64,000 nt of DNA from IMG/VR virus record IMGVR_UViG_3300025645_004731, positions 1-64,000 of that record. The stretch is one strand, 5' to 3'. The stretch comes from a virus. A model generated the notes under the pieces. That model made no database searches. It was given only the letters and a program-made list of their open reading frames with translations, and was not told the DNA's origin. How positions within the stretch are numbered: position 1 is the first letter of the stretch; every line of letters starts with the position of its first letter. Position numbers and translations under genes: made by a program. Below, piece by piece: positions 832 through 58,830 of this stretch.

Positions 832-861
832 GTTATGTATGTATTTAACAAGGAAACAATA

Positions 862-1416
862 ATGCTAATATCAGGCAATAAAAATAAAGGATTAGCGCAG
901 AGTATATCCGCCATATATCCAGACGCGACATTTATCAGCCGCGAATCTGGTCATGACTTGTGTGATTTTTCACAGCAAAAACAATTTGCCAGAATAGCGA
1001 TTGAGCATGATGTAATCATTATCAATAGCGCACTATATCAGTTCGAACAAACTGTGCTACTAGATACAGTATATAAATCGCTGGTGGAGCATCAGAAACA
1101 GGCACATATAGTAGTCATCGGCAGCACTACCGATCGGGTAAAGAACGGCAAAGCCTGGTTATATAATGCGGAGAAGAAAGCGTTACGTGATTATTCAAAT
1201 ACTCTTGCTATCGGTGGAGTCTGGGGAGATCATGCTCCGAAGGTAAGTTATATAAGTTTTGGCACATTAAGCAACAACCAAGAAAAGCATCCAGACAGAA
1301 AATGTCTTGACATTACTGACGCAGCGTGTTATATTAAATGGATAATAGATCAACCAAAGCATCTTAATATAAATGAAATCAGTATAGATCCGATGCAGGC
1401 TAACAAGTGGTATTAA
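862..1416 (+). CDS. Short-chain dehydrogenase-like protein (Rossmann fold, degenerate)
   Basis: A protein of about 184 residues with an SDR-like layout: a Gly-rich nucleotide loop right after the start (SGNKNKG), a strand ending IINSA in the place of the NNAG motif, and a Tyr-x3-Lys pair (YNAEK) where the catalytic Tyr/Lys would sit. It is shorter and more divergent than a typical 250-residue SDR, so activity is uncertain. The start at 862 follows AAGGAAACAATA; an ATG at 835 in the same frame is the alternative. It is the first gene of the plus-strand operon, and the radical SAM gene follows after 4 bases. A second SDR closes the operon. Confidence 0.6.
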   Translation: MLISGNKNKGLAQSISAIYPDATFISRESGHDLCDFSQQKQFARIAIEHDVIIINSALYQFEQTVLLDTVYKSLVEHQKQAHIVVIGSTTDRVKNGKAWLYNAEKKALRDYSNTLAIGGVWGDHAPKVSYISFGTLSNNQEKHPDRKCLDITDAACYIKWIIDQPKHLNINEISIDPMQANKWY

Positions 1417-1420
1417 ATAA

Positions 1421-2533
1421 ATGACCGAAGATTTGAAATGGAGCAACTATGACTTTACTAAAATACCGTTTGACGATGTCGTATCGGTTGGACAGAGAAC
1501 TCTCCTTTACAGAGATATATTTACTGTTTCTTGGCTACTGGGTCGTTTTTGCAATTATAAGTGTAGTTACTGTTGGCCCTATGCACGGTCAGATAGAAAA
1601 GACCATCGTCCTACCGAGTTATGTCTCAGCACAATAGACGAAATAAAGAGACAAGCACGTGGTAATGGTTTTAATAGTTTTCATTTTAGTTTATCTGGCG
1701 GTGAGCCTACTTTTCACCCTGGTTATTTGGACATTCTTAAACATCTTGCGAATGATGTTGATAATACTAATTATACTAGCGTTCACATGACAACAAACAT
1801 GTCACGCAATATGAAGTGGCACAAAGAATACGTAGAAGCAGTTAAGCCGTTCCACCGAGCCAGTATCACAGCTAGTCTACACACAGAACACTTAAATACA
1901 ATTGAGAAGATGCAAGACTTTGCCGATAAATTAATCTTCTGTCAGGAGCACGATGTACAGGTTACAATCAATATGGTTATGGTTCCAAACTGGTTCGAAA
2001 GAGACTGGGAAAACGCCCTGTTCTTCCACGAGCAAGGAATCAACGTCACACTCAAGCCGCAATCAGATCCTACTGCGAGCCGTGTGGTCGATGGTTACAA
2101 AGAGGAAGACTTAAAACGTTTACACAACGGTATGCCACAACGTGCGTACACAGAAAGTAAACGCAAATGGGAAGGTCGACCTAAGCCAAGTTTTCTAATA
2201 CCTACTGGGGTAAATGGAAAAAATGACGCAAGTGTGCCTTGGCATATGCAGATTGAGTTTGAGGACAAGGATGGTAAAAAATGGTACATGGACCAGGCTG
2301 AGAGATTCAATGCTTTCAACTTCAACAACTTTAAAGGCTGGAGTTGTAATTCAGGATATCAAGGAATTATTATTAGAGAGCCTGATGGAAGCATCAAGCG
2401 TAGTTACAGTTGTGCGGATGTACCGCTCGGCAACATAGAAACAGGCTTTAAGTTGTTTGACAAGCCTATGCCATGTATAAGTAATGCATGTGTAAGTAGC
2501 GCAGATAGTAAGATACCCAAACGCAAGATTTAG
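1421..2533 (+). CDS. Radical SAM enzyme with C-terminal cysteine cluster (SPASM/twitch-like)
   Basis: The protein (370 residues) has the radical SAM CX3CX2C motif (CNYKCSYC, about residues 43-50), which binds the [4Fe-4S] cluster that cleaves SAM. It is followed by the SGGEPT motif typical of the SAM-binding strand. The C-terminus has several further cysteines (WSCNSG, YSCAD before PLGNI, PCISNAC) in a SPASM/twitch-like arrangement that could hold an auxiliary cluster. Such enzymes modify peptides, sugars or nucleosides; no substrate can be read here. It lies between an SDR and a nitroreductase-like gene in a compact operon, suggesting one multistep pathway. Confidence 0.85.
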   Translation: MTEDLKWSNYDFTKIPFDDVVSVGQRTLLYRDIFTVSWLLGRFCNYKCSYCWPYARSDRKDHRPTELCLSTIDEIKRQARGNGFNSFHFSLSGGEPTFHPGYLDILKHLANDVDNTNYTSVHMTTNMSRNMKWHKEYVEAVKPFHRASITASLHTEHLNTIEKMQDFADKLIFCQEHDVQVTINMVMVPNWFERDWENALFFHEQGINVTLKPQSDPTASRVVDGYKEEDLKRLHNGMPQRAYTESKRKWEGRPKPSFLIPTGVNGKNDASVPWHMQIEFEDKDGKKWYMDQAERFNAFNFNNFKGWSCNSGYQGIIIREPDGSIKRSYSCADVPLGNIETGFKLFDKPMPCISNACVSSADSKIPKRKI

Positions 2534-2557
2534 TTTGGAACGATATGGAGAAATAAT

Positions 2558-3172
2558 ATGGTATTACCACATGAATATATTAAAACTAGCATAGATACAA
2601 GCCAACATTGTCAGCGTAATTGGGATTTGTCAAAATCTGTTACACAAGAAGATTTAGATTTGATGATCCATGCGGCAACGCAGTGTCCAAGTAAGCAAAA
2701 TTTTTCATATTATCGTGTTCATGTTATTACTAATCGCTCAATTATCGAGACTATACATGATTCTACAAGTGGATATATTACGGCAGACGATAAAATGTTA
2801 ACAAACAGCCAGTGTCTGGCAAATGTCTTATTTGCATTCGAAATTGTAGGACCTAGTGATAATAGCAAATCTCATAACAAGAGAACAGAAAATGGAAATA
2901 ATAATCTGATTAGCAGAGATTCGCTTATGGCGATAAGTATTGCTACTGGATATTTAAACTTAACAGCACATATGCTAGGATACTATACGGGATATTGTCA
3001 ATGTTTTGGTAGAGATACAGTGAGTGAAATATTAAATTCAGGCAATATAGAGATATTACTGGGCGTTGGACATAACAATCCAAATTTAGATAGAAAAATA
3101 CATCACTTAACCAGCGATGATGTGTACGCATCATTTACAAAAGAAGTTACTGATGTGATATATTATAAATGA
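2558..3172 (+). CDS. Nitroreductase-like flavoprotein
   Basis: At 204 residues it has the length and motif order of the FMN-dependent nitroreductase family. An N-terminal CQRNWD segment is followed by AATQCPSKQNFSYYR, matching the family's 'aPSs.N.QPw' FMN-binding region. A helix with DSLMAISIATGYLNLTAHMLG follows, then a C-terminal LLGVGH strand. The family uses NAD(P)H to reduce nitro groups, quinones or azolines; the substrate here is unknown. The start follows GGAGAAATAAT. The stop overlaps the next start as ATGA, indicating translational coupling. Confidence 0.7.
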   Translation: MVLPHEYIKTSIDTSQHCQRNWDLSKSVTQEDLDLMIHAATQCPSKQNFSYYRVHVITNRSIIETIHDSTSGYITADDKMLTNSQCLANVLFAFEIVGPSDNSKSHNKRTENGNNNLISRDSLMAISIATGYLNLTAHMLGYYTGYCQCFGRDTVSEILNSGNIEILLGVGHNNPNLDRKIHHLTSDDVYASFTKEVTDVIYYK

Positions 3173-3753
3173 GAAATACTACAGATTTTATTCAACTTGA
3201 TTATCCAACATATGATTTGGAGAGTGAGTTAAACTCATTGCTGAAGAGTGGTGTAATATCTTGGAATACTTATAATGGGCAGATTTGTATTAATGGCGTA
3301 GAAGATGATCCGGATAATCAATCAATTGGATGCGGTAGTTTATATTATGATTGGGACAATTCTTACTACGACGATACTGACAATCTTGTAATACCAAAAA
3401 AGAACATCGTCTATAATGAAGATGATTTTGTAGTATTGAACTCAAATTTTCGTGGTACATTGTTTGAAGATGTGCATAATATGTTAAAAGAAAAACATAA
3501 AATAGGACGGATGCGAGTGATGAAATCCAAGATGAAAACTTGTTTGACGTGGCATAACGATAGCTCTACTAGAATACACTATCCTATCAAGACACAAGAA
3601 GGATGCTTGATGATAATTGAAGATCAGGCATTTCACATGCCGGTTAACACATGGTGGCACACTGATACTACAAAGAAGCACACGGCATTAAATGGTAGTA
3701 CCATCGATAGAATTCATCTTGTTACTTGTATGATCGACGAATATAATGAATAA
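3169..3753 (+). CDS. 2OG/Fe(II)-type oxygenase, Asp/Asn hydroxylase-like
   Basis: A 194-residue protein whose second half fits the double-stranded beta-helix oxygenases that couple 2-oxoglutarate decarboxylation to hydroxylation. His129 and Asp131 (HND) form the HxD metal motif and are followed by RIHYP, as in aspartyl/asparaginyl hydroxylase-like proteins. A distal His near 171 (HTALN) and Arg181 complete a plausible metal and 2OG site. The acidic N-terminal half has no recognised domain. It overlaps both neighbours (4 and 8 bases) and so belongs to the same translational unit as the nitroreductase-like and SDR genes. Confidence 0.7.
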   Translation: MRNTTDFIQLDYPTYDLESELNSLLKSGVISWNTYNGQICINGVEDDPDNQSIGCGSLYYDWDNSYYDDTDNLVIPKKNIVYNEDDFVVLNSNFRGTLFEDVHNMLKEKHKIGRMRVMKSKMKTCLTWHNDSSTRIHYPIKTQEGCLMIIEDQAFHMPVNTWWHTDTTKKHTALNGSTIDRIHLVTCMIDEYNE

Positions 3754-4303
3754 AATTGCGTTAACAGGACATACCTCTGGCCTAGGTCTAGCTATTCACA
3801 CTCAATATCCAATGGCTGTTGGGTTCTCTCGTTCTAATAACTATGACTTACTTAATTCAGATAACATTACTAAGATGTTAGAACAAATTGATGACTGTAA
3901 TATTTTTATCAATAACGCATTCCCTGCGCTCGCCGCAGATAAAGTCGAGGGCATGAGCACACAGCTTGATATATTGTATAAAGTATATCAACTCTGGGAG
4001 CAAGAGAACGATAAGTTAATAATCAACTTAGGATCAAATACTAGTGATGGTATAAAGAAACATATTTGGCCTTATGCTGCTTCAAAAGCTGCTAGTGATA
4101 AGGCATGTGAGCAATTGTCATATATCACATCAGGACCATCGGTTTGCAATTTGCGCTTTGGGTACATTGATATGCCGCATGTCAATGCGTTTGCTCCCAA
4201 TGAAAAGAAATTACCACTAACTACTGCCCTGGCTACAATACAACATATAATTGACTCCTGGCACCAGGGCGCAACAGTGAGAGAGATTACAGTAATACCT
4301 TAA
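3746..4303 (+). CDS. Short-chain dehydrogenase/reductase
   Basis: The 185-residue protein has the classic SDR signatures: TGHTSGLG near the N-terminus (TGxxxGxG, dinucleotide binding), INNAF in the NNAG position, a Ser in LGSNTSDG, and the YAASK catalytic Tyr/Lys. It is more canonical than the SDR-like protein at the head of the operon. It lacks much of the usual C-terminal substrate region. It should reduce a carbonyl or oxidise an alcohol with NAD(P)H. It is the last gene of the plus operon and meets the minus-strand operon tail to tail with a 4-base overlap. Confidence 0.8.
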   Translation: MNKIALTGHTSGLGLAIHTQYPMAVGFSRSNNYDLLNSDNITKMLEQIDDCNIFINNAFPALAADKVEGMSTQLDILYKVYQLWEQENDKLIINLGSNTSDGIKKHIWPYAASKAASDKACEQLSYITSGPSVCNLRFGYIDMPHVNAFAPNEKKLPLTTALATIQHIIDSWHQGATVREITVIP

Positions 4304-4956
4304 TAAGATATCTTATGCTTCTGTATATTGATTTCAATATTTTCGATTGATTCAGTAAAATGTATCGTACATCCGATTTTAGGACCATTCATACGTCCTG
4401 TCGCATGTAACATATCAGCATCAAATAACAAACCTTTTCCTACGGTATACTTCCACGCATATCCTGTTAACCCGTGATATAAATCTTTTGAATACGGCAA
4501 GTATTTGAATAGTTCATCGGAAATTGGGTGGTCTGTGCATCCTTTTACTTCTGGCGAATCGCATGGTCTGCATCGTAAGGATTTGTCATAATACATATCT
4601 TTTAGTTCTTCGTCAGTTTTGTCTGAGAATATATCATGTATCCAACTCATGCCCACATCACTGTCGAGTCTTTGATCAAAAATAACAAACGTCTGATCTG
4701 GATTGTGTGATTCGATAGGGATTAATAGGATAGTCTTCTTGCCTGTCTTCATATCACTATGTACAGCAAACGGGTTAGCATGATTAAATAAGCTACCAAC
4801 AACAACGGTTGATGGGTCGATAAATTCACTGATAATATCTTTAATATCTTCTTTGTCTTCAATGACTGAAACATTTTTCATTGTGTTTTTGTTACCACTT
4901 TGTGATAGCTGTGTAAACTTATCAATGACGGATTGTGTTAAATCTATTTCAAACAT
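4300..4956 (-). CDS. 2OG/Fe(II)-type oxygenase, paralogue A
   Basis: A 218-residue protein with His66-x-Asp68 (HSD) and a distal His184 (MLHATGR) followed by a basic residue, matching the metal and 2OG binding pattern of Fe(II) dioxygenases. It is clearly paralogous to the gene immediately upstream. Both share a CRPCD/IRPCD block, a DLYHGLTG/DFYHGLSG block and the distal LH motif. Its start directly abuts the stop of that paralogue. It is the last gene of the minus-strand island operon. The substrate is unknown. Confidence 0.65.
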   Translation of the reverse strand: MFEIDLTQSVIDKFTQLSQSGNKNTMKNVSVIEDKEDIKDIISEFIDPSTVVVGSLFNHANPFAVHSDMKTGKKTILLIPIESHNPDQTFVIFDQRLDSDVGMSWIHDIFSDKTDEELKDMYYDKSLRCRPCDSPEVKGCTDHPISDELFKYLPYSKDLYHGLTGYAWKYTVGKGLLFDADMLHATGRMNGPKIGCTIHFTESIENIEINIQKHKISY

Positions 4957-5643
4957 TTATATTTCCTTTGTATTAATTGATTGCAATGATGACATAAGAA
5001 CAACACATCCAACCTTAAATTCAGATTGCATAGCAGTACAGTGTAGTTGACTGGACTTAAACATTAATGCTTTGCCCGGCTGTTGATCCCATGTAATGCC
5101 ACTCAGGCCATGATAGAAATCTTCATTGCCGTATGGTAATAATTTTCTAATATGATCCGGAATATCATGCTCGGTTAACCCACTCACATCTTTTGTATCA
5201 CATGGACGTATGCCCGTCAGTACGTCAGACGCCAAGTGATCATTATCTGAGACAGACTTCTGTACTTCATCTGGCACTGCCGGCTTGTGTCTGATATGAT
5301 CTACTCCCTCTAGGCGCCAACTTAGACCGTATTGTTCAAACTGTTGGTCGAAAACTATCAGTGATTGGTTAACGTCTTGCTTTTTATGAAGAGGAACACA
5401 CATGTTATATACACTATCTCTTTTCCACCGATCTACGTGTAATGGAATAGGCTGTGTATGTGCGTATATGTAAGCAGTTTTCATAATGGATGTGTCTAAA
5501 TAGTCACCGAATGCCCGCTCACGTAATTCCTCATCGACGTTCATGTAAAATGGATCAGGATCTGTTGTGATGTCAACATACTGTGAAACGTGATTCAGTA
5601 GAACTTGTATAGAACTGTCTTTTATGTCAATCTCAAATGCCAT
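4957..5643 (-). CDS. 2OG/Fe(II)-type oxygenase, paralogue B
   Basis: A 228-residue paralogue of the downstream gene. It carries His69-x-Asp71 (HVD) and a distal His201 (QLHCTAM). The conserved RPCD block and the DFYHGLSG block between them are family-specific and not part of the metal site. The duplication with divergence suggests two related substrates or two successive steps. It overlaps the next upstream oxygenase by 11 bases. Confidence 0.65.
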   Translation of the reverse strand: MAFEIDIKDSSIQVLLNHVSQYVDITTDPDPFYMNVDEELRERAFGDYLDTSIMKTAYIYAHTQPIPLHVDRWKRDSVYNMCVPLHKKQDVNQSLIVFDQQFEQYGLSWRLEGVDHIRHKPAVPDEVQKSVSDNDHLASDVLTGIRPCDTKDVSGLTEHDIPDHIRKLLPYGNEDFYHGLSGITWDQQPGKALMFKSSQLHCTAMQSEFKVGCVVLMSSLQSINTKEI

Positions 5644-6259
5644 CGAAAGTTAAATCTTCCTGTCCATCCAGACTAAACATTAATGCGATACGCGGAGAGT
5701 TACTATTGTTTTCGACCGAGTGAGCAAACCCTGTATTTAAAAAATATGCTTTTCCTGCTTCTAGATTATGGTCTTCTAAGTCGTCCTTGCGTTTAAAAAG
5801 ATTTCTAACTTTTGAATTAGTATAAATTGGAACAATAATTCTAGTGGCATATGTTGGATCATAATCAATATGGAAAGGAATAACTTTTCCAGGTGCTAGT
5901 TTTGTGATACGTACTCGCATTGCCGATGCGCTAAACATATTTACAATTTCTTCGAAATACGATCCCGTGTACAATTCCGTTGGTTTATTGTATCTAGTTT
6001 CCTCACGACGACGAATGCGTTCCTTGACATCGGTAGTGTACTCTAGTTCTTCGCCATTTAGTTCGGTTAAGTTAATTTGTTCAAAGTTGTCGTATACATC
6101 CTTTACGAGTTCCATGTGGTTCTTACATAGCGCTGGATTTGCTGACACAACATCGATAAAGCTAGACGCCGCGGCATCGCATTCGGATTGTAATCTTTCT
6201 AAGTCGAATGTTAAATCAAACTTATGTATACAAGGTAGTTGATGCTTTCTTCTTTTCAT
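5633..6259 (-). CDS. 2OG/Fe(II) oxygenase, aspartyl/asparaginyl beta-hydroxylase-like
   Basis: The most canonical oxygenase of the island (208 residues). It has LAPGKVIPFHID with His120 and Asp122, a strand IIVPIYT, then GKAYFLNTGFAHSV with distal His180 and Arg190 for 2OG. This order is that of the Asp/Asn beta-hydroxylase family. I start it at the ATG at 6259 because GGAG sits 6 nt upstream; a TTG at 6271 would include that site inside the gene. It overlaps the sulfotransferase gene by about 38 bases. Confidence 0.78.
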   Translation of the reverse strand: MKRRKHQLPCIHKFDLTFDLERLQSECDAAASSFIDVVSANPALCKNHMELVKDVYDNFEQINLTELNGEELEYTTDVKERIRRREETRYNKPTELYTGSYFEEIVNMFSASAMRVRITKLAPGKVIPFHIDYDPTYATRIIVPIYTNSKVRNLFKRKDDLEDHNLEAGKAYFLNTGFAHSVENNSNSPRIALMFSLDGQEDLTFDGI

Positions 6260-6863
6260 AGTATTCTCCAATTTCTGTTAGATCGATGCCAGCTTCTAGC
6301 ATCTTGTCTTCATAGTTAATTATATCTGATAGCTTGTGGAATTTTGAAAATGGAAAATCTAAATCTTCGTAGTAGATGACATTTCCTTCTACAGTATCAA
6401 GTTGGTCTTTAATATAAAAAAATTGATCTAAAGATTTTTTTAAATCAATTTTCGTGTTAATATTTATAGTCCTAGCCGCGGAGACATCCATTATGCCGGC
6501 AGTCTTCCAGTTTGCCAATTCTTGCCACATAAAACTAAGAGCCCATTTCCAGATGCCTCTGCGTTTAAGAACAAGAATCTCGTCGTTTTCGTAAAAATCC
6601 TTAAACCAGTTGTTATAGTAATCATAATCCGGAGTAATCAGATAATTGATATGGTGCTTGAACGTATAGTTAATGCCTTTTTTCTTTTCAAGATTTAAAA
6701 AGTCAATTTTTTCCGAAAGGCTAGTTTCGGGCATAATATCTGGATTTAAGAACTCTGCCTTTTGATGAGGTTTTCTAACTGATGGATCGTTTAAGTTTTC
6801 GATGTCGATATGTTCATACACATACGAACTGCCTGTTCTCGGGCCGCCTATTAATACTTTCAT
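6222..6863 (-). CDS. Sulfotransferase-like protein
   Basis: The protein (213 residues) begins MKVLIGGPRTGSSYVYE, a phosphate-binding loop typical of PAPS-dependent sulfotransferases (PRTGSS in the P-loop-like 5'-PSB site). A second segment, VLKRRGIWKWALSF, fits the 3'-phosphate binding region. The family moves sulfuryl groups from PAPS to hydroxyls or amines. An APS-kinase-like gene at 12950-13405, further upstream on the same strand, could provide PAPS. The start overlaps the stop of the GNAT gene by 4 bases (ATGA). Confidence 0.65.
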   Translation of the reverse strand: MKVLIGGPRTGSSYVYEHIDIENLNDPSVRKPHQKAEFLNPDIMPETSLSEKIDFLNLEKKKGINYTFKHHINYLITPDYDYYNNWFKDFYENDEILVLKRRGIWKWALSFMWQELANWKTAGIMDVSAARTININTKIDLKKSLDQFFYIKDQLDTVEGNVIYYEDLDFPFSKFHKLSDIINYEDKMLEAGIDLTEIGEYYEKKKASTTLYT

Positions 6864-7462
6864 GTTATTTCGTCTGAACTTATAATCAAGTCTGAGTTAG
6901 GTTTCCATATAAAATCTGGATCATTCAATCTGATACTATACACGTACTGTACAATAGGTCCAGTCTTAAATAGAAAATCTGTTTCAAGTTGGAGACTAGT
7001 GTACCACTCACTATCGGTCCACTCATTAAAACTTTTGACTGTCATTTTCTTTTTTCGTTGATATAATGCGTTGATGGCACGTTTTGTAATATCATGTGTG
7101 ATATACAGAATTTCGAAGCCTCGTTGTCTTGCCCACTTGAGTTGATGTTCGCCCATTCTTAATCCACAATGTGTGAATCTATATTCCTTGAGAATGTGAT
7201 ATCGACAAATTCGGACAGCAATATCAGGATCGTTTGTATAATGAGAAGCCTCTGCCGCGGAGATTGAAATAAGTTTATCTCCTATGAAGCACATCCAGGT
7301 TTCAATATTCTTATCATCCGGATCATATGACCGTGCGCTGTATTTTTTAAGACTGTCATTGCCTTCTTCGATACTTTTCTTTGCGAAATCCCATATTAAC
7401 TCACGATATGCGTCTGGATCTTCGCTGTATTTACAGATCGAAATGTTCGGTTGTGATTGCAT
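6860..7462 (-). CDS. GNAT-family acetyltransferase-like protein
   Basis: A 200-residue protein with a GNAT-like core. A predicted strand (MCFIGDKLISISAAE) is followed by CRYHILKEYRFTHCGLRMGEHQLKWARQRG, where the acetyl-CoA pyrophosphate loop would sit, then ILYITHDITKRAINALYQRK. The canonical R/QxxGxG/A loop is not sharp, so the acyl donor is uncertain. It overlaps the oxygenase upstream by 32 bases and the sulfotransferase downstream by 4. Confidence 0.6.
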   Translation of the reverse strand: MQSQPNISICKYSEDPDAYRELIWDFAKKSIEEGNDSLKKYSARSYDPDDKNIETWMCFIGDKLISISAAEASHYTNDPDIAVRICRYHILKEYRFTHCGLRMGEHQLKWARQRGFEILYITHDITKRAINALYQRKKKMTVKSFNEWTDSEWYTSLQLETDFLFKTGPIVQYVYSIRLNDPDFIWKPNSDLIISSDEIT

Positions 7463-8225
7463 ATTCTTTGTACCTATTCCAGCTTTTTTCTAATAATTTA
7501 TGCCATTTTGGCATATCATATACGCCATGTACGACAAGTTGAACTCTATCTCGCATATCAAATCCACGATTGACACCATGCTCATATACCGCACCGTCGT
7601 ATGCGAAAGCATTTGTTTCAGGCGGCAGCATTGGATATACTTGTGTCGCGTCACTATTTTTTGTCATATAAAAGTGCTCTTCGCGCCAGTCTGTCACCTT
7701 ACTCCATCTAAAATGTAAGTGACTGGGCGCTTGAAGTTTAAGTACTTCTGCCATACCCAACTCTTCATCATAGTGAGCAGGGATAGCAGAGGGAGCTTGG
7801 ACAAAAAACGCTTGGTGTATTGTTTCAAAAGGTAAATTCTCAATGTAGTCAACAACATGTCCAAGTTCTTCTTTGGCAAAATCAAACCAGTCGGGGTGCT
7901 CTCCTGCCATTCCACATTGGTTTGGCTTTAGAAATATAAGTGAGCCGGTATTCTTTGTTACATAAAAGTTCTTCTGAAGATCGGGATCTTCGGCCAATGT
8001 CGCTATCTGGTCCATATCTATATCCAATATAGGAAGATCAATCGGAGACCATACCATATCTCTGTATCCTGTATATTCTTCGTCGATAGACAAATATTCA
8101 TATGTGGGCCGATCAATTTTTACCGCACAGCCCGGATCATCGTTTAGATAACGACGGATGGGTATACCATCTTCATTGAATTTAATATCATTTTTCTTAA
8201 TATGATAGTTAGCTGTATTGAACAT
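7431..8225 (-). CDS. 2OG/Fe(II)-type oxygenase, Asp/Asn hydroxylase-like
   Basis: A 264-residue protein with His151-x-Asp153 (AHYDEE), distal His216 (YEHGVNRG) and Arg227 (DRVQLVVHG). These are the expected residues for Fe(II) and 2OG binding. The N-terminal 90 residues are unrelated to the catalytic core and may bind the substrate. It overlaps the methyltransferase gene by 17 bases and the GNAT gene by 32, so it is part of one translationally coupled run. Confidence 0.7.
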   Translation of the reverse strand: MFNTANYHIKKNDIKFNEDGIPIRRYLNDDPGCAVKIDRPTYEYLSIDEEYTGYRDMVWSPIDLPILDIDMDQIATLAEDPDLQKNFYVTKNTGSLIFLKPNQCGMAGEHPDWFDFAKEELGHVVDYIENLPFETIHQAFFVQAPSAIPAHYDEELGMAEVLKLQAPSHLHFRWSKVTDWREEHFYMTKNSDATQVYPMLPPETNAFAYDGAVYEHGVNRGFDMRDRVQLVVHGVYDMPKWHKLLEKSWNRYKEYAITTEHFDL

Positions 8226-8763
8226 CCAGTATAGTCCTTTTCTTACATGGTATATCTAGCGATAGATGATGTATTATATGCGTATATTTATCAGTAAAAT
8301 ATTGTAAGTTTGTGTATTCAAAGTCTTCAATGTTGTCATCGCTTACTTCGTGAATAATAGCTCTCTTGGGCTGATAAAAATAGCATATATCCTCGAACAG
8401 TTTTTTAGGATCATCTACATATATTAATACGCTACTGAATAATACAACATCTACTTTAAAGTTCGGAGTATATAAATTTTCCCATGATCTGACATCGAAC
8501 TTCTTACTAGGATATAGTTTCTTTGCTAATTCGATTGGACCAGGACTAGTATCGATCCCGTAGTAATTGTATGTATAATCTTTCAAATAATTGTTGATTG
8601 TTCCTGTACGGCATCCTATGTCAACAATACCTGTTAGCTGATGCTTGCGTATTAATGATGCCTGATAACTATATATCGGCGCAGCGCCGTCACCGTCCAG
8701 ATATGACATTTCTGATATATCATATATTTCACGTAGGTGTGATTTGCTGATAGTCACAGGCAA
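8209..8763 (-). CDS. Class I SAM-dependent methyltransferase
   Basis: The 184-residue protein has the class I Rossmann motifs in order: IVDIGCRTGTI (motif I, SAM binding), YGIDTSPGP (post-I acidic strand) and DVVLFSSVLIYVDD (motif IV region). No target-recognition domain is present, which suggests a small-molecule substrate rather than DNA. The phage also encodes a SAM synthetase (29692-30786). It overlaps the TauD-like gene by 35 bases. Confidence 0.78.
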   Translation of the reverse strand: MPVTISKSHLREIYDISEMSYLDGDGAAPIYSYQASLIRKHQLTGIVDIGCRTGTINNYLKDYTYNYYGIDTSPGPIELAKKLYPSKKFDVRSWENLYTPNFKVDVVLFSSVLIYVDDPKKLFEDICYFYQPKRAIIHEVSDDNIEDFEYTNLQYFTDKYTHIIHHLSLDIPCKKRTILDVQYS

Positions 8764-9541
8764 TTCTCCATAACAATCTATTCGGATCGGAGACCGGAGT
8801 ACGTCTATGTAGTGTCGTGAATTGATCCATCAATAACAAATCGCCTTGCTTAAATATGTGGTGGTACTGGTACTTAGATTTAAATATAATATTTTGTAAT
8901 GACTGAATCATAACTTCATGATCAATTACTTGCTTGCCTTGCCATGCTTTTGAAATGAAATGATAAGGAAAATAGAAATACTCCTGTCCAGATACTGGAT
9001 GTTCGCCGACTAACGATCTAATTGAGCCTTTATTTTTTGACATAAACTCAAGTTCTGGGTCATCTTCTTCGAGATGATACATTGTATTGTTTTTAAACTT
9101 GATACGAATCTTAATGCTACGCCAATAATCTTGTTCTTCATTACTTAATGTTTCAAATGGTATAGCAGTATTACAAACGCTTAGAGTTGTATTAATATCT
9201 TCATTTATGCAGTATAGCCCAATAAGTATCTTATCTATGTTATGTCTACTATTGCCATTGCTGTGCCATCCTAGCTCAGTATCGCCGAACATACCTATCT
9301 TATTGCCCTTATCGTCACGTTTCGCCGTTACCAGAAATATCTCTGGATAATCTGTTGGGTTCATGAAAAGGTCTGGTTTTTCGCATTCTCCGAAACGTTT
9401 CATGGTCGAAATGTAAGTTTCTTCGGACAATGATTGGTCATAGCCTACTGCAATACCAACTTTTTGTATATCAGATGCTAGTTCCTTGAGTTCCGTGTCG
9501 TTATATTCAGATATTGATTTTGATAATATTTTTGGTATCAT
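8729..9541 (-). CDS. TauD/TfdA-like 2OG dioxygenase with HxN in place of HxD
   Basis: A 270-residue member of the TauD/TfdA superfamily. The metal motif reads WHSN (His93, Asn95) where TauD proteins have WHTD. The distal His245 (LHRRTPV) and the 2OG-binding Arg259 in RLLWRI are present. An Asp-to-Asn change removes the carboxylate ligand. In 2OG halogenases this position is Ala or Gly and leaves room for halide, so altered chemistry or loss of activity are both possible. The codons at the motif read CAC AGC AAT. The gene lies between the methyltransferase and the PLP aminotransferase genes. Confidence 0.72.
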   Translation of the reverse strand: MIPKILSKSISEYNDTELKELASDIQKVGIAVGYDQSLSEETYISTMKRFGECEKPDLFMNPTDYPEIFLVTAKRDDKGNKIGMFGDTELGWHSNGNSRHNIDKILIGLYCINEDINTTLSVCNTAIPFETLSNEEQDYWRSIKIRIKFKNNTMYHLEEDDPELEFMSKNKGSIRSLVGEHPVSGQEYFYFPYHFISKAWQGKQVIDHEVMIQSLQNIIFKSKYQYHHIFKQGDLLLMDQFTTLHRRTPVSDPNRLLWRIACDYQQITPT

Positions 9542-9555
9542 TACTTACTTTCCTA

Positions 9556-10332
9556 TTATTGCTGATACATATACTTGATTATATCTGCTAGACATAATCT
9601 ATTAGTATAGTTTCGGTAGAATTTTTTATATTCTGGGTCATCGGATGTTGCTAGCCATAGTACATCAGACGGTGTCATATTTAACTGATTGCATATTTCG
9701 CCCTGGTACTTGTTTAGTGTGTTATATACTATTTCGGTGTCGAAATGTTCAATAATTGTTTCTCCTAACCTCATACTGTGATAGTTATAATATTTTGCGC
9801 TATTTTGTAATAAATCAAGACGAAAATCTGGCTCTCTTGTCCAACAGTATCCAATTCTATAATTTCTTAATCCAAATGTTTTGCTTAAACTAAAGAACAC
9901 GCGTTCCACATTATCTGGTATCATGATATTGCGCATTGGTGTACTGCCGACATATGCCAGGTCCAGTACTACTGGAATATCAACAGGTATATCAACATAA
10001 TTGCCGTCGTAGCTTGCTGGGTTACTTAGATACAACACCTCGCCATCTTCTTTGCCACTTACCCATTGATAATCATCAGTTGCCATTTTAATTGTACGTT
10101 TTTCTTGCCACATCCAGTAATTCATTGCCTCGGTAATACCATTAGTGGCATAAAGATGCTCGAATGAGGATAGATCACATATTGGAGCAATCCATTCGGT
10201 GATATCACTAGTAAACTTCTTAACTTCGTCGTGTTGAATAAGAGTATGTTTGCTGACTACATCTTGGACTGGCGCAATTGGAAATGTTCTGATTGCTAGA
10301 CTTTGATTGAGGATAATATCTTTGAAATCCAT
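9556..10332 (-). CDS. PLP-dependent aminotransferase-like protein (fold type I)
   Basis: A compact 258-residue class I/II aminotransferase-like protein. Visible are ATNGITEAMNYW (cofactor phosphate loop region), VLDLAYVG with Asp124 and Tyr127, and FSLSKTFGLRNYRIGY with the Schiff-base Lys151 and a phosphate-binding Arg. It is about 100 residues shorter than usual and seems to lack the small C-terminal domain. It probably interconverts an amine and a ketone, or a decarboxylated equivalent, in the island pathway. The desaturase gene ends one base upstream. Confidence 0.7.
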   Translation of the reverse strand: MDFKDIILNQSLAIRTFPIAPVQDVVSKHTLIQHDEVKKFTSDITEWIAPICDLSSFEHLYATNGITEAMNYWMWQEKRTIKMATDDYQWVSGKEDGEVLYLSNPASYDGNYVDIPVDIPVVLDLAYVGSTPMRNIMIPDNVERVFFSLSKTFGLRNYRIGYCWTREPDFRLDLLQNSAKYYNYHSMRLGETIIEHFDTEIVYNTLNKYQGEICNQLNMTPSDVLWLATSDDPEYKKFYRNYTNRLCLADIIKYMYQQ

Positions 10333-10992
10333 CTACGGTTTTCCCGAATTAGATTGAAAAATCCCGTATTTAATAAACTTCTCTGCGACCCAACCACCAC
10401 TATCGAATCGATGTAATCGTAGGCGTCTAAAGTTGTTATGATGATTGAGGTGATAACCTTCGCCCGCAATCAGTAAATTGAGCCACGGCTGATTACTTGG
10501 TACTGGATAATGACATACCGTGTTTAATAATCCAAATCCTACTTTTGCGTGTATGAATGGTATAAGAGCAAATGCTACAAACAGTTTTGGACTTATTAAT
10601 ATTGTAATAAGCCATACCGCAATCCATATCTTACGCCAATGTTTATGACAAAATACAAGTCTAGGATTGGCATACAGGTCCTTAGCAAACTTTGGCGAAA
10701 TCTTAGGAATGCTCCAGGTTGTAGTAAGTACCTTGAAAATCCCAGAATGGACTGGAGAATGTGGATCATGTTCCGTGTCGGAGTAAGCATGATGAATTCT
10801 GTGTGAAGATATCCAGCCAATCGGAGTACGAATTACTGCGATCATTAGCATTCCGAGACCAATTACTTCAAACCAAACTGGTGCAGAGAACTGCTTATGA
10901 CAGAAGTAACGATGTAACAGTATTGATGCTCCAAAATGAGAAATTACAGTGCTCCATAGTAATCCTAATATTATAACTAGTGTCCAACTCAT
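10333..10992 (-). CDS. Fatty acid desaturase (delta-9 acyl-CoA type), membrane protein
   Basis: The protein (219 residues) has the three histidine boxes of membrane di-iron desaturases: HRYFCH, HRIHHAYSD and HLNHH, separated by hydrophobic segments. This is the order of acyl-CoA/delta-9 desaturases, although it is shorter than cellular enzymes. It would act on membrane lipids or an acyl intermediate and needs an electron donor; the phage FNR at 42058 is a candidate partner. The start at 10992 has AAAGGAAATAAA upstream and overlaps the preceding stop by 4 bases. Confidence 0.85.
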   Translation of the reverse strand: MSWTLVIILGLLWSTVISHFGASILLHRYFCHKQFSAPVWFEVIGLGMLMIAVIRTPIGWISSHRIHHAYSDTEHDPHSPVHSGIFKVLTTTWSIPKISPKFAKDLYANPRLVFCHKHWRKIWIAVWLITILISPKLFVAFALIPFIHAKVGFGLLNTVCHYPVPSNQPWLNLLIAGEGYHLNHHNNFRRLRLHRFDSGGWVAEKFIKYGIFQSNSGKP

Positions 10993-11708
10993 TTTATTTC
11001 CTTTAGTATATCTATTGATTCTTCCCATGTTTGAGAACAACTCTCAAAATTAATATTCGCAATCACACGATGCTGAGTCCCTGTGTTGATAGCTTCATGC
11101 CATTGTTTGACATTCCATAGTACGGGCCTATCAGTTAGCGCATAACGACATGCTGCGTCATCGTCGGATAATAAGAATCTCTCGTTGTTCTTTTTATAAG
11201 TTTGCCAGTAATATTCACTATAGTATACTCCTTGTGTAGGATCTGTGGGAACATACCCATCAACATCTTCGAATTCCGGCCATGATGTGATTGTATTCTC
11301 GTCGCATCCGGCGATAGGAAAAATAAGCGATGCGACAGATGATGTATAGTGATGTCTGTGGCAGAAGAATAAGTGTTCAACCTTTTTAAATCTTGGATCT
11401 GTAGGATCAGACTGGAAAAATTTAATTGCGCTCGAAAATCCGAAATTGCTTAATGTATCACTTAATTCCTTGTATTTTGGAATATCTGACAGATAAACTA
11501 CTTGCATAAGTGGCTTATCTGGATCAAACAATCTATAATGTTTTTTAATATTGTCTTTGAAGAATTTAGTCTCTGGCTTTTGCGTGAATATATTTGGCAA
11601 ATGAGAAAACACTTCTAGGCATTGTTTATGAATCCATTGAAGACGTGGCGTCACCTCTGGCTCATAAACAAATGGACTTGATAATTTTGGGTTTGTTATT
11701 ACTGGCAT
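10989..11708 (-). CDS. 2OG-oxygenase-like/cupin-fold protein with altered metal motif
   Basis: A 239-residue protein whose C-terminal half resembles the Asp/Asn hydroxylase-like proteins of the island. A HRHH segment (His117, His119, His120) sits where HxD is expected, followed by a strand SLIFPIAG. WHEAINTGTQHRVIANI then supplies a His204 and an Arg214. The aspartate ligand is missing, so it may bind metal with three histidines, like cupins, or be inactive. No Shine-Dalgarno is visible, but a TATAAATA motif ends 5 nt before the ATG. It is the first island gene after thymidylate synthase. Confidence 0.55.
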   Translation of the reverse strand: MPVITNPKLSSPFVYEPEVTPRLQWIHKQCLEVFSHLPNIFTQKPETKFFKDNIKKHYRLFDPDKPLMQVVYLSDIPKYKELSDTLSNFGFSSAIKFFQSDPTDPRFKKVEHLFFCHRHHYTSSVASLIFPIAGCDENTITSWPEFEDVDGYVPTDPTQGVYYSEYYWQTYKKNNERFLLSDDDAACRYALTDRPVLWNVKQWHEAINTGTQHRVIANINFESCSQTWEESIDILKEIK

Positions 11709-11713: not shown

Positions 11714-11721
11714 TATTTATA
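11714..11721 (-). promoter_or_regulatory. Late-type promoter motif TATAAATA
   Basis: A perfect T4 late consensus that overlaps the thyA stop codon and ends 5 nt before the ATG of the oxygenase-like gene at 11708. If used, the transcript would be nearly leaderless. It could drive the whole minus-strand island operon late in infection. Confidence 0.4.
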
Positions 11722-12571
11722 TCGCCATATTTGCTTTAATACTGGGCATTGGATCATAGCCGTCAAGTATATAGTCAGTTGGCTTAGTAGAGATTAATTC
11801 TTTCAGTGTATTAAACGCTGGCATCTGTAATGTTGGACCAGTCATTGCTTTTCGCTCTAACTGTTGGTTAACTTGTTCCATATGATTACTATAGATGTGG
11901 CAATCGCCGCCAGTCCATATAAACTCACCTACTTCTAGGTCGCATAGTTGAGCAAACATATGTGTTAGTAGACTATAACTAGCAATGTTAAATGGTACGC
12001 CCAAAAACATATCGGCGCTGCGTTGATATAATTGGCAGCTTAGTCGACCATTAATAACCCGAAACTGTGCCATAGTGTGACACGGAGGCAATGACATGAC
12101 GGGAATATCAGGAACATTCCAGGCACTTAGGATAATACGTCTACTATCAGGATCGTTTTTGATTTGGTCTAGAATAATATCAATCTGATCAACACCGCCG
12201 AAATCGCGCCATTGTTTACCATACACTGGTCCTAAATCTTTATTGGTATCGCTATTAAAGTGACCAAGCGCCACTCCTTGAGCATCCGCGTTAGCAGTCC
12301 AGATAGTTTTCTTGCCGATTAAATTATCCTTGGTATCATCATAATGAATCTCTGCTAGGCGTCTTTCATTCATGCTGCCCTCTAAGAACCACAACAACTC
12401 ACTCACTACACTGCGCCACGCTAGTCGCTTAGTTGTGACTGCCGGAAAGCCGTCTCTAAGGTCAAAACGCATTTGGTGACCGAACACAGTCCGAGTACCG
12501 GTCCCTGTGCGATCACTTACGTCTTCGCCTGTATTCAAAATGTGTTGGAGTGATTCTAAGTATTGCTTCAT
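11717..12571 (-). CDS. thyA: Thymidylate synthase
   Basis: A full-length ThyA (284 residues) that methylates dUMP to dTMP with methylene-tetrahydrofolate. The active-site Cys is in LPPCHTMAQF. LGVPFNIASY carries the Asn that selects dUMP over dCMP, so this is not a dCMP hydroxymethylase. The folate-binding WFLEG segment and the dUMP phosphate arginines (DSRRIILSAWN) are present. It forms an overlapping cluster with DHFR, which regenerates its folate cofactor. Confidence 0.95.
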   Translation of the reverse strand: MKQYLESLQHILNTGEDVSDRTGTGTRTVFGHQMRFDLRDGFPAVTTKRLAWRSVVSELLWFLEGSMNERRLAEIHYDDTKDNLIGKKTIWTANADAQGVALGHFNSDTNKDLGPVYGKQWRDFGGVDQIDIILDQIKNDPDSRRIILSAWNVPDIPVMSLPPCHTMAQFRVINGRLSCQLYQRSADMFLGVPFNIASYSLLTHMFAQLCDLEVGEFIWTGGDCHIYSNHMEQVNQQLERKAMTGPTLQMPAFNTLKELISTKPTDYILDGYDPMPSIKANMAI

Positions 12572-12957
12572 AGTTTGCCTTCTGCTCTTAATTGTGCTCT
12601 GATTTTTGTAGCACTTATATCATGTATTGTAGCACCCATATCATGTTCTGTCAAGCTATATCCTACACCGCGGCCATAGCTGATGTCCACTATATTAGGA
12701 ACCTTGGCTACTTCATATTCTTTGTGTAAGGTATATCCATGCTCGACTAAACCCGCTACAATGTTCTTCTTTACATCATAGTAATCATATGGGTTATCAG
12801 CCTGACCTGGTCCAGCATCTTGACCCTGGACATCACGGCACATGATAATAACCTGCCCTGTTAGTTCTAATGATTTTACGAATAGAGCAGTGTGACCATC
12901 ATGCCACGGCTGCCATCTTCCCAACATTTGTACTGTGGGTGCTTTAAAATCAAACAT
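12568..12957 (-). CDS. Nucleotidyltransferase (HxGH family, NMNAT-like)
   Basis: A small 129-residue nucleotidyltransferase. GRWQPWHDGH contains the HxGH motif and resembles the GRFQPFHxGH of NMN adenylyltransferases. The C-terminal ISATKIR matches the ISxTxxR motif that holds the triphosphate. It transfers a nucleotidyl group from an NTP to a phosphorylated acceptor that cannot be named. The overlap with the APS-kinase-like gene also raises the possibility of a sulfate-related activity, but the ATP-sulfurylase QxRN motif is absent. Confidence 0.7.
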   Translation of the reverse strand: MFDFKAPTVQMLGRWQPWHDGHTALFVKSLELTGQVIIMCRDVQGQDAGPGQADNPYDYYDVKKNIVAGLVEHGYTLHKEYEVAKVPNIVDISYGRGVGYSLTEHDMGATIHDISATKIRAQLRAEGKL

Positions 12958-13405
12958 TTATACATGAGCCATTTGAGGTAATACCTGATTTAACAGCAGC
13001 ATATCGTTGCACTACCTGATGTAAAACCTCATGCGTATCCGTAAACCATTCACTGACATGATAATCATAATGATCTGGCGTAATGTACATTTTGTTGGTA
13101 TCTGCGTAGCGACTTTCCGAAATAGTATCCATCAATACTGTAAAATCAGCATTGAATAGTTCTCGTGTTTCGTGAGTAGGACACACAAAATCACATACAG
13201 CAATCTTATCAGCCATCACTACACCATCGGCTAACATACTCATGCGCATTGATTGTCGTGCTCTGCCGAATATACTAAAATCCCAATCGTCGTATCGTGT
13301 GCGAACATCATCAGCATTAATCCAAACACCGCCTAGTAATTTAGCCAATGGTCTAGCAAGAGTGCTTTTGCCACTGCCCGGCAATCCCATAATCAATATC
13401 TTCAT
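12950..13405 (-). CDS. APS kinase-like P-loop kinase
   Basis: A 151-residue P-loop kinase. GLPGSGKSTLA is the Walker A loop, WINADDVR resembles the substrate-binding segment of CysC-type adenylylsulfate kinases, and FVCPTHETRELF occupies the position of the 'SPyr..R' motif. CysC makes PAPS, the sulfate donor of sulfotransferases. The assignment to APS rather than another small substrate is by similarity only. The ATG at 13405 follows GGAG and gives a clean 4-base overlap with DHFR. Confidence 0.65.
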   Translation of the reverse strand: MKILIMGLPGSGKSTLARPLAKLLGGVWINADDVRTRYDDWDFSIFGRARQSMRMSMLADGVVMADKIAVCDFVCPTHETRELFNADFTVLMDTISESRYADTNKMYITPDHYDYHVSEWFTDTHEVLHQVVQRYAAVKSGITSNGSCINV

Positions 13406-13884
13406 CGTTTGCTCCATACATCTACATACACATCCCCGCGTATGCCGCTATCGGTTAAGGTAAATTTTTCTTCTATCAATGTACGTGGTAAGAAAGTATC
13501 ACAGTCGTATGAGCCGCGTATTTGACTTAGATGAATTTCGTCAATGATTGAAAGCAATCCTTCAACTAGTTTTGCTCCACCAATAATCCAAACATCTTGT
13601 AGTTTGTTCATGTTAGTAAGGTCAGTCTTGGCATTATCAAATTTAATATAATGATATCCGCCCTTATCTTTATCTTGTGCACTACTAGTGATAACGATGT
13701 TATTACGATTAGGTAGTGGCTTACGTGGTAAACTATCCCACGTAGATTTTCCCATTGCTACTACGCCACCAGTAGTACATTCTTTGAACCATTTCAGATC
13801 CGCTGGGTTGTGAGGCCAAGGAAGGGTACCGGCTTTACCGATACCCCAATCTGCGTCACACGCTAGTATTGCCTTTATCATCAT
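13402..13884 (-). CDS. Dihydrofolate reductase
   Basis: A 160-residue DHFR with the family order: ILACDADWGIGKAGTLPWP (substrate loop), AMGKSTWDSLPRKPLPNRNNIVIT (NADPH-binding Arg/Ser-Thr region) and VWIIGGAKLVEGLL (second Gly pair). It regenerates tetrahydrofolate used by the phage thymidylate synthase in the same operon. The start follows AAGGACGTAG. It overlaps the upstream unknown gene by 29 bases. Confidence 0.93.
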   Translation of the reverse strand: MMIKAILACDADWGIGKAGTLPWPHNPADLKWFKECTTGGVVAMGKSTWDSLPRKPLPNRNNIVITSSAQDKDKGGYHYIKFDNAKTDLTNMNKLQDVWIIGGAKLVEGLLSIIDEIHLSQIRGSYDCDTFLPRTLIEEKFTLTDSGIRGDVYVDVWSKR

Positions 13885-18040: not shown

Positions 18041-18223
18041 TTATGCGCCGTCGTCCATTTCACAGATGTCATCATAATAAGATGACTCCTCGTATAATGA
18101 ATCAAACAGACTTTCCGGAATTACTCCTAATCCGACAACCCGACGAGTTTCGCAGTAATGTGTGTAGTCGTCACAATCCTGAACTTCGGGAAGATATGCG
18201 TGTGATTTGATAACTGTTGCCAT
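18041..18223 (-). CDS. Small acidic hypothetical protein
   Basis: A 60-residue acidic protein with several Tyr and Cys residues and no recognised domain. The ATG at 18223 follows AAGAGAATCACT and is preferred over an upstream start at 18253, which would lie in the promoter leader. It has its own sigma70-type promoter and so is probably an early product, perhaps a host-takeover protein; that role is inferred from position and size only. Confidence 0.6.
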   Translation of the reverse strand: MATVIKSHAYLPEVQDCDDYTHYCETRRVVGLGVIPESLFDSLYEESSYYDDICEMDDGA

Positions 18224-18255
18224 AGTGATTCTCTTTTCTCTGTTACTATACATAT

Positions 18256-25152: not shown

Positions 25153-25214
25153 GATAAATAAAGATGAATGTAGTTCGCGGTGCGTCAACACCCAACTACT
25201 CTAATGCTTACTAA
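25153..25214 (+). promoter_or_regulatory. Late-type motif plus 16-codon leader ORF
   Basis: GATAAATA at 25153-25160 is followed after 3 nt by an ATG that opens a 16-codon frame ending at 25214. The next gene's ribosome-binding site, AAGGAG, starts right at this stop. It may be a coupling leader for the endonuclease gene or a chance frame. Confidence 0.3.
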
Positions 25215-25227
25215 AGGAGCAATCAGC

Positions 25228-25872
25228 ATGAATATTTATCCCTCTTATACCTATCATATTTCCTGGACAGAACAGGACAAACACTATTATGGTGTTCGTG
25301 TAGCGAATCAATGTCAGCCAGAAAAGGACTTATGGATAGAGTATCATACTTCCTCCAATATTGTCAAGTCATTTCGTGAAGAATACGGCGAGCCAGATAT
25401 CATACGTATAGACAAGACGTTCGACACTCGTGAGGCAGCAGGCGAATATGAGATTCGATTCCTGACAGAGAATGGGTGTGTTATGTCATCGAAATGGCTG
25501 AATATGGCAGCCTGGCCGCTGATTGATAGTCGCGGTAAAAATAACGGCATGTATGGAAAAACTCATTCCGAAGAAGCCAAAAGAAAACAGGCCGAGGCTA
25601 GTAAGGGAGAAAATCATCCTATGTATGGAAAAACTCGTTCCGAAGAAACCAGAAAAAAACATTCTGAGTCGATAAAGGGAGAAAATAACGGCATGTATGG
25701 AAAAACTCATTCCGAAGAAGCCAAAAGAAAAATATCTGAGTCGAAGAAGGGCAAACCACAAGAAAAAGTTACATGCCCCCACTGTAAGAAGGTAGGTGGT
25801 ATTACCGTTATGAAAAGATGGCACTTCGATAACTGTAAGAAAAAGTCAATCATTATTACACGAATTATGTAG
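25228..25872 (+). CDS. Homing endonuclease-like protein, GIY-YIG-like with NUMOD3 repeats (copy 1)
   Basis: A 214-residue protein with an N-terminal domain that looks like a divergent GIY-YIG nuclease ([14 protein letters not shown], a Glu in AAGEYE). It is followed by three NUMOD3-type DNA-binding repeats ([18 protein letters not shown]) and a C-terminal CPHC...HFDNC zinc-binding motif. It is nearly identical over its first 100 residues to the copy at 58862. It is inserted between the exonuclease promoter and the aminopeptidase gene, on the opposite strand, as expected of a free-standing mobile endonuclease gene. RBS is AAGGAG. Confidence 0.78.
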   Translation: MNIYPSYTYHISWTEQDKHYYGVRVANQCQPEKDLWIEYHTSSNIVKSFREEYGEPDIIRIDKTFDTREAAGEYEIRFLTENGCVMSSKWLNMAAWPLIDSRGKNNGMYGKTHSEEAKRKQAEASKGENHPMYGKTRSEETRKKHSESIKGENNGMYGKTHSEEAKRKISESKKGKPQEKVTCPHCKKVGGITVMKRWHFDNCKKKSIIITRIM

Positions 25873-29200: not shown

Positions 29201-29399
29201 CCGGATTCTCCTTCAAATATTTCACACGTTGCGTAATTTCAGTTACTTCAACGTACTTAGGTTCAGTGTATGAGGTAGTGCCTTTAACTGCCGCATTAAT
29301 ATACACATCATGTTTATGTAACGCTGCCCAAGTTTTATTAATGGCAGCTACATCTTTATTGAACTGTTTTACAAGTTCTGTTACTTTAGGATCTTTCAT
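29193..29399 (-). CDS. Small hypothetical protein
   Basis: A 68-residue, mainly helical protein (MKDPKVTELVKQFNKDVAAINKTW). The ATG at 29399 makes a TAATG overlap with the stop of the DUF59 gene and is preferred over the ATG at 29408. The function is unknown. Confidence 0.65.
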   Translation of the reverse strand: MKDPKVTELVKQFNKDVAAINKTWAALHKHDVYINAAVKGTTSYTEPKYVEVTEITQRVKYLKENPDA

Positions 29400-58801: not shown

Positions 58802-58830
58802 TTGACAAGCAAGGCGCCATGGTGTATAAT
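58802..58830 (+). promoter_or_regulatory. Sigma70-type promoter, plus strand (proximal)
   Basis: Perfect consensus TTGACA, 17-bp spacer and TATAAT, 31 bp before the endonuclease start codon. Confidence 0.75.

Follow-up and report, generated by a model that had tools for sequence, protein, structure and literature searches.

An enzyme island around a conserved radical SAM gene in a large uncultured phage, and a possible viral tailoring pathway

An uncultured large phage (IMG/VR record IMGVR_UViG_3300025645_004731) carries 16 tightly packed enzyme genes between positions 835 and 11708 of the 64,000-nucleotide stretch that we analysed (positions 1 to 64,000 of the record, hereafter the window). 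We propose, with a probability of about 45%, that this island is a conserved viral biosynthetic or tailoring cluster, whose enzymes would successively transform one small amine-bearing building block into a product located at a surface. Auxiliary genes of phages usually contribute isolated reactions that supplement host metabolism. In this case, viruses maintain as one unit a 10-kb block of enzymes for oxidative, radical and transfer chemistry, arranged around a radical SAM (rSAM) enzyme. The same genes, in the same order, occur in dozens of aquatic viruses and in one cultured ocean phage, which suggests a small biosynthetic pathway. The core operon is present in this cultured phage, Mosig, whose host is Ca. 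Pelagibacter ubique HTCC1062, so that the product of such enzyme islands is directly testable.

Five plus-strand genes (835-4303) and the minus-strand genes converge at 4300, where they overlap by 4 bases, and the majority of the island junctions were overlapping or abutting, confirming the convergent layout described in the first-pass annotation. The island is flanked by ThyA, a kinase and DHFR. Taking the rSAM gene as a hub, we kept 80 loci from 593 matching IMG/VR stretches. The features are listed below, with family counts among 66 dereplicated hub loci and amino acid identities to proteins of Mosig and of two related viral loci, L131 and L102.

835-1416, plus strand: SDR1, SDR-fold protein (family in 19 of 66 loci)
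1421-2533, plus strand: rSAM hub, with C-terminal twitch/SPASM-like cysteines
2558-3172, plus strand: nitroreductase-family flavoprotein (PF00881, 2e-07; 33 of 66 loci)
3169-3753, plus strand: AspH1, Fe(II)/2OG hydroxylase (Asp_Arg_Hydrox)
3746-4303, plus strand: SDR2, SDR-like protein (13 of 66 loci)
4300-4956, minus strand: OG4300, 2OG-type oxygenase
4957-5643, minus strand: OG4957, 2OG-type oxygenase
5633-6271, minus strand: AspH2, Fe(II)/2OG hydroxylase (Mosig_00072, 56%)
6222-6863, minus strand: sulfotransferase-like P-loop protein (L131, 64%; L102, 51%)
6860-7462, minus strand: GNAT-like protein (Mosig_00073, 63%)
7431-8225, minus strand: OG7431, probable 2OG-type oxygenase
8209-8763, minus strand: SAM-dependent methyltransferase (MT; Mosig_00074, 40%)
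8729-9541, minus strand: TauD/TfdA-type 2OG dioxygenase (Mosig_00075, 69%)
9556-10332, minus strand: fold-type-I PLP enzyme, aminotransferase-like (Mosig_00079, 51%)
10333-11040, minus strand: membrane fatty-acid-desaturase-like di-iron enzyme (DES), three His boxes (Mosig_00080, 64%)
10989-11708, minus strand: OG10989, conserved protein, 2OG assignment unproven (L131, 74%; L102, 63%)
11717-12571, minus strand: thymidylate synthase (ThyA), canonical type, conserved island flank
29399-29713, minus strand: DUF59/PaaD-type Fe-S assembly protein, adjoining metK (PF01883, 9.8e-19)
29692-30786, minus strand: S-adenosylmethionine synthetase (MetK), possible SAM supply
34202-35350, minus strand: second rSAM, N_Twi_rSAM (NF033640), outside the island
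42058-42756, minus strand: ferredoxin/flavodoxin-reductase-like flavoprotein, possible electron source

The rSAM, nitroreductase, methyltransferase and desaturase identities initially proposed all passed Pfam cut-offs. The PLP enzyme was also supported, by an invariant SxSK motif and weak aminotransferase matches. The two SDRs fared less well: the YxxxK motif was seen in SDR1, but both Pfam matches (adh_short for SDR1) fell below the cut-off. The GNAT assignment comes from a weak match, and that of the sulfotransferase, which had no Pfam match, from a PRxGSS motif. Six of the seven 2OG-type proteins claimed are credible, three of them by curated models. AspH1 (33 bits) and AspH2 (34.3 bits) exceeded the PF05118 cut-off of 22.6 and thus belong to the Asp_Arg_Hydrox family, the HxD...H triad being invariant in the AspH1 alignment, and the TauD protein passed the curated PF02668 cut-off. 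OG4300 and OG4957 had no Pfam match; they are paralogues sharing an invariant HxD...H (H69, D71, H201). Foldseek matches of the OG4957 model (pLDDT 86) were 2OG oxygenases, and the predicted double-stranded beta-helix together with the motif supports both proteins as 2OG oxygenases. Relatives of OG7431 keep HxD...H. For OG10989, no HxD was visible in two sequences and database searches gave no match. The best solved relative of AspH1 was Cpz10 (7V4F), which its profile matched over nearly the full length (E=2.4e-31). Cpz10 hydroxylates a nucleoside-antibiotic intermediate in caprazamycin biosynthesis (PMC9814697); it comes from a bacterial cluster, however, and a substrate shared with the phage enzyme is not implied. 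The AspH1 alignment contained no stretch conserved enough for scanning viral contigs.

The hub is a slowly evolving viral gene. Its product was 82-90% identical in nearly all 80 kept loci, the alignment contained more than 100 invariant columns, and the sampled viral hubs formed a single group; no close match was found among 50,697 cultured-phage records. The protein scored 57.3 bits against the PF04055 cut-off of 29.5, with C44, C48 and C51 invariant. Four C-terminal cysteines (C309, C331, C352 and C357) were also invariant, and the best fold matches, EpeE and anSME, point to a putative SPASM/twitch domain, although no one solved structure resembled the model closely (TM-score at most 0.50). 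Two more specific assignments were rejected: N_Twi_rSAM (NF033640), at 44.8 bits against a curated cut-off of 170, and prokaryotic viperin, the viperin-type antiviral rSAM, at 40.3 bits against 180 and with a weak PADLOC pVip match. The second rSAM of the window does reach the NF033640 cut-off (209.8 bits). Single hub records contained as many as 20 rSAM domains.

The first-pass annotation had suggested searching other phages for conserved co-occurrence of these genes, and the neighbourhood proved to be conserved across viruses. In other viral records, 24 of 29 AspH-domain genes and 22 of 23 nitroreductases were located no more than 10 kb from the hub, where 14% would be expected for each, and the same enzyme families were repeatedly present in the hub flanks. 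The island genes are therefore not single, scattered AMGs, the outcome that the first-pass annotation had named as refuting its reading. The minus-strand genes form a second module, whose order was identical in L131 and L102 at 44-77% identity. All genes tested against L131 were under purifying selection, third codon positions being 40-54% identical and second positions 73-89%. A shorter operon, DES-PLP-TauD-MT-GNAT-AspH2, recurred in dozens of contigs and one isolate; among 54 non-identical contigs, TauD was directly upstream of MT in 38 of the 39 holding both. Only some of the core-operon contigs, many of which are short, showed a hub. A search of 398 Pseudomonadota genomes, run without a positive control, did not find the GNAT-like protein.

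The isolate is Pelagibacter phage Mosig EXVC030M (MT647606), whose genome announcement does not discuss the operon (PMC7892664). Six of its genes are homologous to genes of the window operon and follow one another in unchanged order, directly before the tail-fibre genes and between VrlC and the neck protein. Mosig differs from the window in having FMN reductase, peroxiredoxin and OG76 in place of OG7431, the sulfotransferase and OG4957, and it gave no hub rSAM match at E<=1e-5. The window thus joins two separable modules, and since the hub is also seen in only some core-operon contigs, the two do not necessarily belong to a common pathway. The idea of a single pathway is nevertheless better supported than before, because the neighbourhood is conserved.

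We suggest that the first module comprises the nearly invariant hub with its nitroreductase, AspH-type hydroxylase and SDR partners, and the second the co-linear operon of desaturase, PLP enzyme, TauD, methyltransferase, further 2OG oxygenase(s), GNAT, optional sulfotransferase and AspH2. The building block could resemble an amino acid, a nucleoside or an amino sugar. Radical SAM chemistry would come first, followed by transamination, methylation, acylation, hydroxylation and optional sulfation. Since relatives have tail-fibre genes right next to the operon, the product probably ends up at a surface, either the host envelope or a virion adhesin, judging by gene position. Families, conservation, gene order, co-localisation and purifying selection are read from the sequences themselves; the single pathway, the scaffold, the reaction order and the surface destination are inferred. 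SAM (MetK) and Fe-S assembly (DUF59) may be provided by the phage itself, as may electrons. Heavy SAM use would agree with the presence of both these genes in the window and with the PNP_UDP_1 nucleosidase-like genes adjoining some hubs. MetK was rejected as a specific marker of rSAM-rich viruses: it was present in only 8 of 23 hub records, and also in one record (G029) without an rSAM match.

The product could instead be a sugar made or decorated on the host envelope, the LPS or O-chain being remodelled so as to alter receptors and block co-infection, a role proposed for the host recognition clusters of pelagimyophages. An ArnB-like aminotransferase, a carbamoyltransferase and an epimerase are annotated near the Mosig operon, along with the tail fibres, and sulfotransferase and epimerase domains were recurrent around the hub. 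The Mosig copy, in a hypervariable region running from VrlC to gp14 with tail fibres, also falls within the host recognition cluster (HRC) of pelagimyophages as defined by Zaragoza-Solas et al., which holds glycosyltransferases and radical SAM cassettes and for which O-chain modification is argued (PMC7029224). However, the window island has no recognised glycosyltransferase, and none was among the 25 commonest entries, which ranked ahead of 49 others, in a Pfam census of 150 hub-neighbour families led by rSAM, AspH, TauD, B12-binding and methyltransferase domains. Glycan remodelling is somewhat unlikely.

Modification of a DNA base against restriction appears improbable. Post-replicative tailoring is known in phage hypermodification, for example in Synechococcus phage S-B43 (PMC12783734), and ThyA, the kinase and DHFR lie at the island borders. 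Yet the window ThyA aligned as a canonical dTMP synthase retaining FNIASY, not as an hmdU/hmC hydroxymethylase type; Tet_JBP was not matched in 24 records (a search without positive control), and a membrane desaturase is ill-suited to a DNA substrate. SAR11 genomes, moreover, are nearly devoid of restriction systems, according to PMC7029224.

The operon's position beside tail-fibre genes in Mosig and relatives could also mean that the hydroxylases and other enzymes modify tail-fibre residues of a virion adhesin. AspH-family enzymes can hydroxylate Asp/Asn, and one window protein, fibre-like and 1416 aa in length, has long collagen-like Gly-X-Y runs that are rich in Asp/Asn. The retrieved loci, including that of Mosig, contained no collagen-like run of at least 15 repeats, so that this fibre was rejected as a general substrate. 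The PLP enzyme, methyltransferase, desaturase and rSAM are hard to fit in, and Cpz10, the best solved relative of AspH1, has a small-molecule substrate. This reading is very doubtful. Equally doubtful is a set of unconnected auxiliary genes that accumulated in a hypervariable hotspot and stay together only through local tolerance of insertions. The loci differed greatly in their genes around the hub, and Mosig has single 2OG oxygenases scattered elsewhere in its genome, but core-operon genes keep a strict order in diverged viruses, and this, the strong purifying selection and the tight spacing all speak against it. A RiPP cluster, less supported like DNA and tail-fibre modification, was rejected, as there was no precursor peptide by the hub and the conserved small ORFs were a membrane-type protein and other phage proteins.

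Returning to the tailoring cluster, the view that such an island is not a standard phage module needs qualifying, as islands of this type recur in marine T4-type phages (PMC7029224, PMC5332604). The HRC is one example, a hypervariable island with tail fibres and radical SAM cassettes; PMC7029224, as searched here, puts the emphasis on glycosyltransferases, and the co-linear desaturase-PLP-TauD-MT-GNAT-AspH operon is absent from its account. In the window, the island lies beside thyA, and the contig is truncated next to the hub. One environmental T4-like genome, with paaD and 12 rSAM genes that were treated as Fe-S users, is similarly dense to the hub records; the passages of that source consulted here (PMC5332604) do not describe the 82-90% conserved hub with its partner enzymes. 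Islands of this type and T4-like marine phages rich in rSAM are already published, whereas the conserved hub and the co-linear operon were not described in the text searched. It is possible, as a tentative extension, that large aquatic phages share a widespread, virus-owned pathway resembling secondary metabolism, with an old, near-invariant rSAM and exchangeable tailoring operons, making a molecule unknown in cells.

The rSAM-thyA block was inverted between the window and L131. Phase-variable inversion was rejected; an evolutionary inversion is the simpler reading, because no convincing inverted repeats flank the block in the window. Bdellovibrionota also have hub homologues (L084-L093, L095), 58-67% identical to the viral rSAM, and 17 of 291 genomes from this phylum carried them; unlike the viral hubs they are cellular and form a separate clade, and extra rSAM proteins adjoined them in several loci. 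In one relative, the hub rSAM gene was interrupted by a group I intron inside the Fe-S motif.

The IMG/VR virus record is 90,615 bases long, and its initial 64 kb make up the window. This record begins 1.4 kb upstream of the radical SAM (rSAM) gene and lacks the side that bears further rSAM genes in relatives. The record is probably a piece of a larger genome, since the phages with the nearest DNA polymerases, Sinorhizobium phage Phosso (49%) and Agrobacterium phage Atu_ph07 (46%), are very large ones. All ORFs named in the first-pass annotation were found in the window. Plus-strand genes start at 835, 1421, 2558, 3169 and 3746 and are faced at 4300, with a 4-base overlap, by the minus-strand genes; nearly all genes of the island overlap or abut.

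The rSAM protein (2.8e-15), nitroreductase, AspH1, AspH2, TauD, methyltransferase (MT) and desaturase (DES) scored above Pfam cut-offs. The sulfotransferase (SULT), GNAT and SDR assignments were based on motifs or sub-threshold matches, and the PLP enzyme (PLP) combined an invariant SxSK with weak class I/II aminotransferase matches. Proteins 4300 and 4957 gave no match against Pfam. They have in common an invariant HxD...H, another island family is related to them (hhalign E=2e-18), and an AlphaFold2 model of 4957 (pLDDT 86) retrieved the 2OG oxygenases SnoN, FIH, TYW5 and EctD. Relatives of 7431 also keep the HxD...H. Six of the seven proteins initially proposed to be of 2OG type are thus credible; the seventh, 10989, is conserved, with no HxD visible, and its 2OG assignment is unproven.

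Relatives of the rSAM protein, hereafter the hub, were encoded in at least 593 candidate IMG/VR stretches, of which 80 were kept. Identity was 82-90% in nearly all of these; one near-copy of the window and a sequence at 81% fell outside this range. Among 50,697 cultured phage records, the sole match at E<=1e-5 was Campylobacter phage CP21 (26%). Cellular relatives (58-67%) came almost only from Bdellovibrionota MAGs, 17 of the 291 genomes of this phylum carrying one, and a 36-sequence tree placed the viral hubs in one group. The alignment has over 100 invariant columns, among them the cysteines of CxxxCxxC and four C-terminal ones. The hub model (pLDDT 80) resembled EpeE, anSME, viperin and BlsE, no TM-score exceeding 0.50, and the fold therefore gives no readable function. 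In the related viral locus L102, a group I intron (18865-19134, minus strand; RF00028, Rfam E=3.1e-26) splits the hub gene inside the CxxxCxxC motif. In the Bdellovibrionota loci (L084-L095), the hub adjoins several further rSAM proteins as well as members of a conserved, possibly glycosyltransferase-like family of FISYDE type.

Hub neighbours were counted over 66 loci, dereplicated after clustering. N_Twi-type rSAM genes were present near 57/66 and another rSAM family near 43/66, followed by nitroreductase (33/66), PP-loop protein (32/66) and AspH1 (29/66). Whole hub records contained up to 20 rSAM domains (median 15). Within 10 kb of the hub lay 24 of 29 AspH-domain genes and 22 of 23 nitroreductases, where about 14% would be expected. 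A Pfam census of 150 hub-neighbour families was dominated by rSAM, AspH, TauD, B12-binding and methyltransferase domains; the 25 commonest included no glycosyltransferase.

The minus-strand operon was recovered elsewhere by scans with OG4300/4957, GNAT and TauD. The order OG10989-DES-PLP-TauD-MT-OG7431-GNAT-SULT-AspH2-OG4957 is identical in L102 and in a second related viral locus, L131 (protein identity 44-77%), and every gene compared is under purifying selection. Operon and hub are co-directional in both loci. Relative to L131, the window carries the AspH1-to-OG10989 block in reverse orientation, and L131:4146-14558 corresponds to the window's island with the whole rSAM-thyA block inverted; no repeats flanking this block were found in the window. 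In 54 non-identical contigs (from TauD- and GNAT-baited scans, supplemented by a few hub loci, and hence informative on order, not prevalence), TauD was immediately upstream of MT in 38 of the 39 having both, DES preceded PLP in 13/14 and GNAT preceded AspH2 in 29/34.

The cultured Pelagibacter phage Mosig EXVC030M carries AspH-DES-PLP-FMN reductase-peroxiredoxin-OG76-TauD-MT-GNAT-AspH2, then tail-fibre genes, between VrlC and the neck protein. The paper announcing its genome contains no discussion of this operon (PMC7892664). The hub is absent from Mosig; hub and operon are thus separable modules, joined in the window.

The viral enzyme cluster is real and conserved. Islands of this type and rSAM-rich T4-like phages are already known, but no description of either the invariant hub or the co-linear operon seems to exist in the literature searched, which was mostly open-access journal papers. 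The best solved relative of AspH1 is Cpz10, a hydroxylase of a nucleoside-antibiotic intermediate (E=2.4e-31), and the TauD profile matches are to herbicide- and small-molecule-type dioxygenases. Taken with the PLP enzyme, the methyltransferase, the GNAT and the sulfotransferase, these matches look like small-molecule tailoring. MetK, a DUF59 Fe-S assembly protein and an FNR-like flavoprotein are also phage-encoded; MetK is supportive only, as it occurs in 8/23 hub records and also in one record lacking the hub. Remodelling of host glycans stays plausible in view of the operon's location and of the published interpretation; the VrlC-neck protein interval in Mosig is the published host recognition cluster (PMC7029224). 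Modification of tail fibres is suggested by a collagen-like fibre encoded in the window, although such a fibre is no general feature. The canonical ThyA makes DNA hypermodification less likely; a Tet_JBP search, run without positive control, was empty. A RiPP product was not supported.

Other features of the window, including this fibre, are as follows.
12568-13417, minus strand: adjacent kinase and nucleotidyltransferase-like genes, jointly matching one PHROG kinase family
18041-18253, minus strand (also record positions 64187, 78837, 82407 and 90184): repeated upstream module, near-identical across several genes
18342-22592, minus strand: fibre-like protein of 1416 aa, in which long Gly-X-Y runs of collagen type, rich in Asn/Asp/Thr/Gln, occur alongside head repeats of AIAIG type
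25180-25872 and 58802-59518, plus strand: two genes with near-identical N-terminal stretches
61220-61302, minus strand: freshwater-2 cis-regulatory RNA (RF02980, E=2.9e-08)

The two plus-strand genes are possibly copies of a mobile gene, and the kinase and nucleotidyltransferase-like genes appear as if they were split halves of a fused gene. The repeated upstream module reads TTGACA...TGTATATTAT, then ATGTATAGYAACAGAGAAAAGAGAATCAYYATG, and is a sigma-70-like promoter with a leader.
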